Source of the DNA: a virus
IMG/VR virus record: IMGVR_UViG_3300029319_000050
Span: 1-58,409 of that record
DNA: 58,409 bases
Strand: one strand, 5' to 3'
The notes below the pieces were generated by a model. The model searched no databases. It was not told the DNA's origin and saw only the letters and a list, made by a program, of their open reading frames with translations. The position numbers and the translations under genes are program-made. Of the stretch, positions 19,149-36,722 are shown one piece after another. The first letter of the stretch is position 1. Each line of letters begins with the position of its first letter.

Positions 19149-19422
19149 CTTCTCCTCCTTGCTCGAAATAATCTGCGTTATCACTTGTTATACCTTGATA
19201 TTTATCAGGTAGTTCTTCTACTAAACTTAATGCTATTAGTTCCTCTTCATGTGGATCTAAATATATGGTTACTAAACCAGACCATCTTACATAAACAAAA
19301 CAACTTGGTGCTACTTGGTAAACGTCATTTACAAAAGTTTCTAGTTTAAGAGGTTTCTCAAAAGCATTTAATACAAAGTATGTTGCTTGACCGTAATCTG
19401 GGAATGTTAAATTTTTAACCAT
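19126..19422 (-). CDS. Accessory protein, unknown (98 aa)
   Basis: The chosen ATG (MVKNLTFPDYGQAT) overlaps the stop of the MazG-like gene; a TTG 24 bases upstream is the alternative. The product has strands YFVLNAF, CFVYVRWSGLVTIYLD and a helix EELIALSLVEEL, with an acidic C-terminus. Coupled translation with the MazG-like gene suggests a shared unit. No family is recognised. Confidence 0.55.
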   Translation of the reverse strand: MVKNLTFPDYGQATYFVLNAFEKPLKLETFVNDVYQVAPSCFVYVRWSGLVTIYLDPHEEELIALSLVEELPDKYQGITSDNADYFEQGGEDEPTKSN

Positions 19423-19819
19423 CTTTCTTAAATAAACCGTCTTCAAGTTTACCTGTACGTTTACTAATCACTTTATAAACTTCGTTCATCGTATATCCAG
19501 GATTAAAACCTAACTGTTTACAAAGTACAATCAAACATACAAAACAATCACCTAGTCCGTCAATAATATTAGGTTTATCTTTATAGGCGATAGCTTTAGC
19601 AGTTTCACCAACTTCTTCTACAAGTTTTAACATCTGCATAGTTGGTTGTACATCTTCGTTTAATAGACCACGATCCTCTGCCCACTCGATAATATTAGCG
19701 ACTGCTATATCTTCACGCTCTGGGCATATATCTTTTAATGGGATAGGGATCGTTACTAAAGGCTCACCTTCAATTAGCCTATCTTCTTCTACTTGATAAT
19801 TAGGTTCATCTCTTTCCAT
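19415..19819 (-). CDS. MazG-like nucleotide pyrophosphohydrolase
   Basis: This 134-residue protein has an acidic N-terminus. A MazG-type helical domain follows from about residue 60: MLKLVEEVGETAKAIAYKDK supplies the metal-binding Glu residues and NIIDGLGDCFVCLIVL the second acidic motif. Such enzymes hydrolyse (d)NTPs to monophosphates, or ppGpp-like nucleotides, in the cytoplasm. Phage MazG proteins are thought to modify the nucleotide pool during infection; here one could remove dTTP or dCTP and favour a modified base, which is inference. The start follows a GGAAG site just after the upstream stop. Confidence 0.75.
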   Translation of the reverse strand: MERDEPNYQVEEDRLIEGEPLVTIPIPLKDICPEREDIAVANIIEWAEDRGLLNEDVQPTMQMLKLVEEVGETAKAIAYKDKPNIIDGLGDCFVCLIVLCKQLGFNPGYTMNEVYKVISKRTGKLEDGLFKKDG

Positions 19820-19820
19820 A

Positions 19821-20225
19821 TTAACTTCCCATAAATGCAAACTGCATCATAGGCTCTTCATCATAGCCTTTTTCCATAAACTCTATTTCAGCAGTCATTT
19901 GTTCTAAATCTAAAGGGTTATCGGCTAATGCACCTGTTTCATAATCGAAACCTGTAATAATACCGATCCCTGCATAAGCGTTATTGACCGTATGCGACAT
20001 ATCTTTAAATCGCCAATACCTTTGGTTACTATGTAATAAACCATTATCGTCTAACATAACTTGTAAATATTTTGACGGAACTTTATCACATGGGTAATCA
20101 GTCATAGTAACTGTATCACATTTAATAACATGGTATGCCCAATCGAGAGAGTTATCGTTTGGCATTTTTTGTTTTAACACTGTTTGGTCAACAGGGTTAA
20201 CTACATAAACATCTATTTCTTTCAT
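19821..20225 (-). CDS. DUF3846-like accessory protein
   Basis: This 134-residue acidic protein contains KYLQVMLDDNGLLHSNQRYW and YAGIGIITGFDYETGALADN, a pattern like the DUF3846 group of phage and plasmid proteins (recalled, not searched). The function of that group is unknown. It is the first gene after the promoter at 20265-20306 and is followed without a gap by the MazG-like gene. Confidence 0.6.
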   Translation of the reverse strand: MKEIDVYVVNPVDQTVLKQKMPNDNSLDWAYHVIKCDTVTMTDYPCDKVPSKYLQVMLDDNGLLHSNQRYWRFKDMSHTVNNAYAGIGIITGFDYETGALADNPLDLEQMTAEIEFMEKGYDEEPMMQFAFMGS

Positions 20226-20264: not shown

Positions 20265-20306
20265 ATAATAAAAAACAATAAACCGAATGTAAAGCCATTA
20301 AACAGT
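20265..20306 (-). promoter_or_regulatory. Early-family promoter with upstream box, unit 20225-18638
   Basis: The minus strand reads ACTGTTTAATGGC, TTTACA, a 17-base spacer and TATTAT. The box is identical to that at 23483-23495. This is the best-matching member of the family. Confidence 0.75.
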
Positions 20307-20310
20307 AATT

Positions 20311-20459
20311 AAAAGTGGTGGTGTGATCTTTAAGGGTATTATGAAAAACAGATATTTGGAAAACAAACTACAAACCAAATATCATGGGGCATTGCACTCA
20401 AAGATCACTTTTATACAATAAGCTTCCACCATCACTTAACGGAGGTATGCAAACCACCC
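20311..20459. ncRNA. Structured RNA candidate 1 (about 150 nt)
   Basis: The non-coding stretch folds into nested perfect stems: TGGTGG/CCACCA (20316-20321 with 20426-20431), GTGATCTTT/AAAGATCAC (20323-20331 with 20400-20408) and GATATTTGG/CCAAATATC (20351-20359 with 20375-20383). A 3' hairpin GGAGGT/ACCACC (20441-20446 with 20453-20458) follows. Perfect pairs give no strand information; one terminal G-U (315/432) weakly favours plus. GGTATGCAA in its 3' hairpin also occurs in candidate 2. No known RNA class is recognised. Confidence 0.5.
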
Positions 20460-20463
20460 CAAA

Positions 20464-20691
20464 CTACCAAAACTTTTTCTCCTCCTTTCTTTTAATTAAT
20501 CCCATTTGGACATGGATATCTTCTAATATTTCTTTTGCGTACTTACGTTTAGTCAACGGTTCCATGTCTTCTAGTATTTCAATATGATGTAATAAAGGTT
20601 TCCAATTACGTTCGTAAATCCTATCTAATGGCTTAACTTTATATTGCCATTTAATAATACTACCATCGTCACTTTTTAAATTACCTTGCAT
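20464..20691 (-). CDS. Accessory protein, unknown (75 aa)
   Basis: The ATG at 20691 overlaps the upstream stop (TAATG); a TTG at 20700 is the alternative. The 75-residue basic, helical product contains WQYKVKPLDRIYERNWKPLL and a Lys-rich end (LIKRKEEKKFW). It lies between the two structured RNA candidates. An RNA-binding role is an idea from context only. Confidence 0.5.
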   Translation of the reverse strand: MQGNLKSDDGSIIKWQYKVKPLDRIYERNWKPLLHHIEILEDMEPLTKRKYAKEILEDIHVQMGLIKRKEEKKFW

Positions 20692-20885
20692 TAACACCAA
20701 GCCTCTTTTATCACTTCATCGTTTTTACGTTTATCGTGATATTGTTTTACTATCTTACCGTCACTATAATAAAGCGTTACATAATCATCCCCTGCACGGT
20801 ATTCACGTGAAGGAAGATTATGTTTCTCATAATTAAGTTGTTCTCGTCTAGCTTCTAATCTAGCAACTTGATCTGGATATGCCAT
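20691..20885 (-). CDS. Accessory protein, unknown (64 aa)
   Basis: This 64-residue charged protein has a helical start (YPDQVARLEARREQLNYEK) and a strand pair (DDYVTLYYSDGKIVKQYHD). A GGAG site precedes the ATG. It lies just 3' (on its own strand) of the structured region 20906-21360. No family is recognised. Confidence 0.55.
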   Translation of the reverse strand: MAYPDQVARLEARREQLNYEKHNLPSREYRAGDDYVTLYYSDGKIVKQYHDKRKNDEVIKEAWC

Positions 20886-20905
20886 AATAATTTTCTCCTA
20901 AAAAA

Positions 20906-21360
20906 GTGTGGCTTATCAATCTCGGTATGCAATTGTTTTAATTGACTAACTTAGCTCTCCCTTATGACCTTTGAGAGTACCACTTGCTAGTTTTGTTTAA
21001 CGTAAAGGACTAGCAACCCATACAACCTCCTATTTTTACTTACAGAGAGTCATGCAAGTTGTGAGGTGCCTGATGAAAAAGTAGGGAGACACCTCACGGT
21101 TGGATATGATCTAGTGATGGTTTCTAGCACTTATTCTAGTTTCATCTCAGACCGACATCTACATTATTCTTGAAGGGAATGCAGTCAGGATTTACAGAGC
21201 TCATTCTCATATCCTATTTGTGTGGGCTGTTGGAGTATCACGATGACCTTTAAATGGTAAGACTCCCCTTTAACAGAATACAAATGGGAACCTTTCATAG
21301 TCAGGCTTTATATCGTGGAAGGCTCAGTAACAGCTAATTTCACCTTCACCCCTCGCACAC
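20906..21360 (+). ncRNA. Structured RNA candidate 2 (about 455 nt)
   Basis: This 480-base gene-free stretch is full of long complementary arms. Seen helices: GTGTG/CACAC closing the ends (20906-20910 with 21356-21360); TTGCTAGT/ACTAGCAA (20984-20991 with 21009-21016); GTGAGGTG/CACCTCAC (21061-21068 with 21090-21097); GGATATGA/TCATATCC (21102-21109 with 21207-21214); 21175-21181 with 21202-21208; 21212-21223 with 21278-21289; CTGTT/AACAG and GGAGT/ACTCC inside it; 21291-21298 with 21315-21322. Several helices contain internal G-U pairs that fit only a plus-strand RNA, opposite to the neighbouring genes. Some helices overlap at their ends. No promoter, U-run terminator or known class is evident. 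Confidence 0.55.
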
Positions 21361-21365
21361 AAAAC

Positions 21366-21563
21366 TTATCTACCAATAGTCTCTAAATCGTTTTCAGTAA
21401 TATATTGGTAAGCTCCTTTATTATACACTGGAGCAATCTGTTTACGTCGTTGGGTAGCAACTTCTTGAGCTAGTATTTCACCGCACTCTAAACAAGTATT
21501 TCTACCTAATGCCCATCGACCTCTATCGACAGGCTCGTCACATAATTTACAAAGTCTTTTCAT
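21366..21563 (-). CDS. Small zinc-ribbon-like protein (65 aa)
   Basis: This 65-residue basic protein begins MKRLCKLCDEPVDRGR and continues NTCLECGEIL: two Cys-x2-Cys knuckles 15 residues apart, a likely zinc ribbon. The rest is helical with QRRKQIAPVYNKGAYQYI. It is a single-gene unit after the promoter at 21594-21630, ending next to the structured RNA candidate. It is probably nucleic-acid binding. Confidence 0.65.
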   Translation of the reverse strand: MKRLCKLCDEPVDRGRWALGRNTCLECGEILAQEVATQRRKQIAPVYNKGAYQYITENDLETIGR

Positions 21564-21593
21564 AATTTTTTCTCCTAAATAATTACTATATAA

Positions 21594-21630
21594 ATAGTAA
21601 ATACCATTTAACCGAAAGTAAAGCGATTTA
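21594..21630 (-). promoter_or_regulatory. Early-family promoter with doubled upstream box, gene at 21366
   Basis: The minus strand reads GGTAAATCGC, TTTACT, a 17-base spacer (again CGGTTAAATGG) and TACTAT. A second partial box (TAAATCGCTTTAGG) lies just upstream at 21630-21643, within the 3' end of the neighbouring gene. Confidence 0.7.
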
Positions 21631-36675: not shown

Positions 36676-36722
36676 GCGTTTTTTTATTTTTTATAGTAAT
36701 ATAAATTTTTAGAAAGCAGAAG

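Follow-up and report, generated by a model that had tools for sequence, protein, structure and literature searches.

A predicted gene-sense array of compact RNA modules from undescribed families, gained, lost and swapped as cassettes in marine phages

The longest gap between open reading frames in the virus record IMGVR_UViG_3300029319_000050 (IMG/VR; positions 1 to 58,409, a stretch of 58,409 nt here called the window) very probably holds an array of four independent compact RNA modules, M1 to M4, which run in the sense of the genes, come from undescribed families, and behave as cassettes, being gained, lost, exchanged and nested. The array occupies positions 21360-20906 of the minus strand, between two cistrons of a 58-kb phage contig whose genes lie nearly all on that strand. 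We hold this anatomy, as read from sequence comparison, with high confidence. The best explanation of the whole, in which the four-module gene-sense array acts as a series of cis mRNA roadblocks, is preferred only tentatively and may well be wrong.

The gap (20886-21365, 480 nt), in which GC is locally raised and many helices are possible, had already been singled out by a first-pass annotation as the longest gene-free stretch, and this observation stands. The annotation read it as one RNA of about 455 nt on the plus strand. The exact loss of modules, the swaps of inner hairpins, and the homologs in unrelated phages indicate instead four separate modules of 78-141 nt, and the genes, the promoter-like blocks, and the compensatory and G-U/A-U exchanges all fit the minus strand. 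The supposed closing pair of ends (20906-20910 with 21356-21360) consists of the CACAC and GTGTG ends of two different modules: the GTGTG of M1 (21360-21356) pairs with the CACAC of M1 itself (21224-21220), not with the end of M4, and a relative without M1 still has M2 and M4. The argument that G-U pairs fix the plus strand is undone by exchanges in relatives, since the M1 pair 21350/21234, a G-U in the window, has become A-U in locus L178. Stem 2 of M4, which is CTCTC/GAGAG in the window versus CTCTC/GGGAG in L065 and L068, likewise fits the minus strand.

Against dinucleotide-shuffled sequences, the folding energy of the whole region did not stand out on the plus strand (z -0.78, 24 of 100 shuffles as good) or on the minus strand (z -1.55, 8 of 100). 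Taken to the letter, this is one of the outcomes that the annotation had named as refuting its claim. Considering that nested folding is blind to pseudoknots, folding energy is a weak test here, and covariation is the better one for pseudoknotted RNAs; the covariation that the annotation had proposed as a check was positive in the module homologs. When each module was folded separately, z was lower on the minus strand for each of M1-M4, and only M3 was clearly significant. No conserved protein frames, of the kind expected of a coding region, were found. The longest frames span 35 aa (plus strand) and 37 aa (minus strand), and they are broken in relatives by non-triplet indels and whole-module changes; a coding role was therefore rejected.

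Upstream of the array lies a gene for a 65-aa CxxC-type protein (21366-21563, minus strand; PHROG 4593, a family of unknown function), the stop codon of which falls 5 nt before M1. The 64-aa gene downstream (20691-20885, minus strand) has no Pfam or PHROG match, and the four ORFs nearest the array gave no Pfam match and only one function-unknown family in PHROGs. Directly 3' of M4, a T-run is joined to a Shine-Dalgarno sequence (TTTTTTAGGAG, 20895-20905, minus strand), that is, TTTTTT and then AGGAG; a T-run or T-rich stretch follows M4 in most of its contexts. A promoter-like block, GCTTTAC...TTTATATAGTA (21580-21625, minus strand), precedes the 65-aa gene, resembles blocks before other minus-strand genes, and is probably the start of the transcript that would carry the array. 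The recurring form of this block consists of GCTTTAC, an AT-rich TATA-like stretch, and then AGAAAGGAG or AGGAG, with minus-strand copies near 36678, 25174, 23485, 22547, 21625, 20296 and 18627; it is possibly the phage's own promoter class.

The window's DNA polymerase was closest, within the phage collection, to those of the seawater phage 023Pt_psg01 (54%), the lake phage DSL-LC04 (49%), and the SAR11 pelagiphages HTVC023P and HTVC027P (47-48%). In 023Pt_psg01, the closest named relative, a gene-free gap of 409 nt that is rich in inverted repeats follows small accessory genes (L219, 10194-10601); it has no Rfam match and could be a counterpart of the array. The window itself contains a second structured intergenic element (20301-20463, minus strand), which separates the gene at 20464 from that at 20225 and comprises nested helices of 9-12 bp followed by a T-run (z -2.67 on the minus strand and -3.92 on the plus strand); no clear homolog of it was seen among the loci compared. 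Genes for MazG-like pyrophosphohydrolases, recognized by eye from their translations, were also noticed directly 3' of several arrays (L006 at 10830, L011 at 14850, L047 at 3350) and near the array of the window (19415-19840).

Homologous contigs were located through the flanking 65-aa gene and a DUF932 gene. The resulting loci overlap, some contigs represent the same phage, and counts refer to distinct sequences where so stated. The loss of modules was read by aligning L002, L003 and L021 to the window. L003 is a close relative, with a DNA identity to the window of about 75-84% that rises to near 95% in the best protein segments; M1 and M3 are exactly missing from it, and M2 and M4 are kept. 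The contig behind L021 and L057 carries the 65-aa gene, M1 and the start of M2, then 10 Ns, and then the end of the same gene followed by M2 without M1. This 10-N junction (positions 2264-2273 of L227, contig IMGVR_UViG_3300037847_002334) joins two overlapping versions of the locus. Probably these are haplotypes from a single population that were scaffolded into one contig, although the arrangement may also be an artefact of assembly.

M1 (21220-21360, minus strand) is supported by covariation, the swap of its inner hairpin, a distant homolog, and its absence in L003. It is predicted to form three stems, P1 (21360-21356/21224-21220), P2 (21352-21348/21236-21232) and P3 (21347-21343/21322-21318), and a six-pair pseudoknot between GCTGTT (21334-21329) and AACAGC (21231-21226), around a swappable inner hairpin (21315-21241). 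A divergent homolog lies in L178, directly after a module of the Y family described below, and keeps P1, P2, P3 and the pseudoknot, the last having become GCAGTT/AACTGC there. With the inner hairpin left out, 100% of the cells were paired across three sequences, one divergent variant (L178) and near-copies; five pairs had changed on both sides, one of them in the pseudoknot, and slid controls gave no two-sided changes. The M1 core is also kept in L002 and L022, where the inner hairpin is another module, X, which occurs alone, outside M1, in L067, L026 and L010/L011. Two further matches to the M1 pattern (L073 and L075) were discarded as chance, the M1 structure being absent around them.

M2 (21102-21214, minus strand) is bounded by the closing stem GGATATGA/TCATATCC (21214-21207/21109-21102) and is 97% identical in L003 and L002. 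Its divergent homolog in L207 is closed by an entirely different stem and shows a compensated change from TAG/CTA to GCA/TGC, and the M2 core resembles another family, B. M3 (20984-21101, minus strand) comprises a hairpin (21097-21090/21068-21061), the loop of which is shorter in L002, and a 3' half (21058-20984) that ends in a GCTAG/CTAGC hairpin and recurs at 89% in another phage (L201). It is the module with the strongest folding on the minus strand (z -2.83, 0 of 200 shuffles as good).

M4 (20906-20983, minus strand) is a predicted three-way junction with P1 (GTGG/CCAC, 20983-20980/20911-20908), P2 (20977-20973/20959-20955) and P3 (20945-20941/20920-20916). A loop contact GGT/ACC (20969-20967/20926-20924), seen as AGT/ACT in variants, is possible. 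Copies of M4, listed with a sequence-only model, are identical over 78 of 78 positions in L066 and L067 and 97% identical in L065 and L068. Apart from M4, blastn found nothing shared with the window in L067, L065 and L068, and a single 146-bp match in L066; M4 precedes several unrelated proteins. In the variants (L065, L068, L045, L062, L069 and L022), P2 and P3 are kept by compensation, stem 2 occurring as CTCTC/GAGAG, TTTTC/GAGAA and AACAA/TTGTT. Its arms paired in 20 of 20 cases with their own partners versus 34 of 60 when swapped. The helices in this test were picked by eye, and the forms that carry inserts are misaligned by MAFFT, so that the covariation of M4 is weaker than that of M1 and Y.

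Y is another module of the same kind, an H-type pseudoknot (S1/S2) with invariant GGAT, TTAAAG, AATCC and ACAACG. At least 98 members were supported among the 120 pattern matches listed. Because the scans were seeded with patterns from known members, the conservation of pattern positions proves nothing. In 30 aligned members, 93.8% of cells pair, versus 74.5% after shuffling and 35-43% after sliding, with a covariation score of 0.508 versus 0.151; in stem S1 pairing is complete (100%), and each of the four positions shows compensatory changes. The Y model gave no convincing match in the window or in the cultured HTVC104P, HTVC023P, 023Pt_psg01 and DSL-LC04. Y too has a swappable inner domain, and such domains are themselves modules: module N sits inside Y in L098, L175 and L212, and domain V in 19 loci. 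One small hairpin, CCTAGATTAAATTYGGGG, is shared by the M1 module of L178, the M4 modules of L045, L062 and L069, and the family B module of L029. At least 10 module families were counted, which apart from Y are lightly sampled. On these comparisons, M1-M4 are taken to belong to undescribed RNA families common to uncultured marine phages. An ACCTCC motif, which resembles the 3' end of 16S rRNA (the anti-Shine-Dalgarno), was also seen to recur, perhaps by chance, in several modules (L129 4330-4560, L192 4200-4330, L006 10500-10600, L011 14490-14560, and about 20443 in the window).

Searches of databases gave no known counterpart. No match to Rfam 15 was obtained in the window or for the modules in module-bearing loci, the best sub-threshold score in the array being RAGATH-19 with 22.1 bits versus the 85.6 required, and ARAGORN found no tRNA or tmRNA in the window. 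The first-pass annotation was thus right to set aside tmRNA, RNase P RNA, 6S RNA and group I introns, and its suspicion of a new class, as far as sequence can tell, understated a case that appears to comprise several undescribed families. Against the 50,697 phage records of INPHARED, blast found no match for the arrays of the window, L067, L062, L137 and L129, and only fragments of 25-42 nt (E 0.04-0.5), taken as chance, for the array of L022. In GTDB species contigs, M4 and Y gave no match to exact patterns, which for Y covered inserts of up to 34 nt. A glutamine riboswitch (RF01739, 52.3 bits) was noted in L146 (7538-7592, plus strand), a viral contig that also has a Y module. No description of such arrays was found in the open-access literature; subscription papers and bioRxiv preprints were mostly outside this search, so priority cannot be claimed.

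All modules seen have the same sense as the neighboring genes. The contexts of Y comprise 81 distinct ones. In 44 of these, Y follows a stop codon by at most 60 nt and precedes a Shine-Dalgarno-led start by at most 60 nt, an arrangement found in 2.7% of random windows, and in 47 Y lies within 20 nt of a stop. The window array also follows a gene, as most Y modules do, rather than standing at a predicted start of transcription. Other modules begin where a consensus promoter would start transcription: the promoter matched at 12 of 12 positions in L076 and L088 (0 of 1000 shuffles) and at 10 of 12 in L066 and L067 (2-3 of 1000), while the match was weaker in L069 and not significant in L065 and L068. 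Stand-alone units, with a module and an intrinsic terminator and no ORF, occur in L129, L154, L159 and L174. When the Y and M4 contexts are pooled, a single T7-like primase cluster accounts for 46 of the 71 proteins encoded downstream, and Y lies directly 5' of the T7-like DNA primase gene in many contigs, including L099, L137, L180 and L206.

In vitro, the pseudoknotted xrRNAs of viruses block the bacterial enzyme RNase J1 (PMC5760640). On account of this precedent, of the flush position of most Y modules in intercistronic gaps, and of the indifference of M4 to the next gene, we chose as a tentative mechanism, possible but short of probable, that the modules are cis-acting mRNA elements which block nucleases or define transcript ends. 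Transcription would begin at the promoter-like block near 21600 and run through the 65-aa gene into the array, whose modules would each fold by themselves within the polycistronic RNA. Acting as physical roadblocks, the modules would stop exonucleases or fix processing ends, so that the ends of transcripts would be defined or protected; modules in tandem would give redundancy, and the fold, not the downstream gene, would be what counts. Against the roadblock mechanism, some Y modules form promoter-module-terminator units without an ORF, which suit a trans-acting RNA better. Moreover, the many different nested and conserved modules suggest distinct functions rather than one generic block, and the strong link of Y to one gene, that for the T7-like primase, could point to gene-specific control.

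The same stand-alone units lead to the rival that survives best, although we regard it as rather unlikely: the modules would be small RNAs, excised or discretely transcribed, which titrate in trans a host factor such as a defence protein, an RNase, a toxin or a signalling nucleotide. Phrased for the arrays, and with the same standing, each would be a counter-defence island made of RNA, whose specificities can be exchanged. The large number of conserved families, which are nested in one another and reshuffled from phage to phage, agrees with this, as does the indifference of M4 to the downstream gene; however, the majority of Y modules sit flush within operons and many have the same gene downstream, neither of which is needed in trans. 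A broader view, equally speculative, is that at least about 10 undescribed pseudoknotted families, which move as 55-140-nt cassettes and nest within combinatorial arrays, might make up an exchangeable RNA toolkit of uncultured marine phages, possibly with sponges or decoys against host defences, like protein anti-defence islands.

It is unlikely that the modules are ligand-binding leaders or RNA-polymerase-binding antiterminators, riboswitch-like or like HK022 put, which control the downstream cistrons. Their unpaired cores are conserved while the outer stems vary, some occupy leader positions right after promoters, a T-run or Shine-Dalgarno sequence comes just downstream, Y mostly precedes the primase gene, and putRNA offers a precedent of about 70 nt near a phage transcript start (PMC9378689). 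Yet M4 stands before unrelated genes, several unrelated folds are mixed in one leader, no hairpin that could serve as an alternative expression platform was identified, and the modules are pseudoknots whereas put is two stem-loops. Less probable still are new self-cleaving ribozymes that would cut the polycistronic RNA between cistrons: compact pseudoknotted folds, invariant unpaired cores (TTAAAG and ACAACG in Y) and intercistronic positions would suit them, but the known ribozyme families in Rfam were unmatched and no obvious invariant cleavage dinucleotide was recognized. Finally, one ornate plus-strand RNA of about 455 nt is almost certainly the wrong reading, because the plus-strand helices can be drawn only as inverted repeats look alike on both strands, while plus-strand folding is no better than shuffles, whole modules are missing from a relative, modules follow gene orientation in every other phage, and the G-U exchanges fit the minus strand.

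If the anatomy is true, gene annotation and Rfam alike have overlooked a layer of structured RNA in uncultured marine phages, and domain shuffling, familiar in proteins, extends to small RNAs, with modules nested in modules. The short length and exact borders of the modules make synthetic RNAs a direct way to test for inhibition of defence, self-cleavage, ligand binding and the blocking of nucleases.

We know of no counterpart for this modular, nested RNA architecture. The small stable RNAs C and D of T4 are likewise clustered, and their function is unknown; their cluster is one of tRNAs, whereas no tRNA gene was found in the window. GOLLD, ROOL and OLE are large structured noncoding RNAs, some of them in phages (PMC12286853), but they are single RNAs with Rfam models, unlike the small, separable and Rfam-unmatched modules found here. 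The structured leader RNAs manA, wcaG and PhotoRC-II of marine phages, also found by comparative genomics (PMC2864571), are single motifs tied to host-metabolism genes, in contrast to modules without a match in Rfam 15; as for gene association of the riboswitch type, M4 is upstream of unrelated genes and Y mostly upstream of primase. The type III antitoxin RNAs (ToxI and the AbiF antitoxin), of which phage mimics have a precedent (PMC3475682), likewise consist of pseudoknots that are lined up ahead of an ORF. However, ToxI is a tandem repeat of one unit of about 36 nt beside a toxin gene, whereas the modules here measure 78-141 nt and are mutually unrelated; there was no tandem repeat family in the array, and no recognizable toxin of the ToxN, AbiF or CptN type among the four nearest ORFs scanned. 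The antiterminator RNAs putL and putR of HK022, of about 70 nt, act in cis near the transcript start (PMC9378689). They are two stem-loops of lambdoid phages, unlike the pseudoknots and three-way junctions in arrays described here, which are also intercistronic or stand-alone; a put-like position at or near a predicted transcription start is seen in L066, L067, L076 and L088, whereas the window array and most Y modules come after a gene. The flaviviral xrRNAs are compact, pseudoknotted, often tandem, and act through their fold, and M1 and Y are likewise pseudoknotted according to the pairing evidence. The likeness lies in the compact pseudoknotted fold (the M1 pseudoknot and S1/S2 of Y). In contrast to the xrRNAs, the modules here belong to DNA phages, comprise many unrelated folds that are nested and shuffled, and match neither xrRNA sequences nor Rfam. 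If the cis-roadblock reading is right, their function would be a variant of something known, and the architecture would be the new part.
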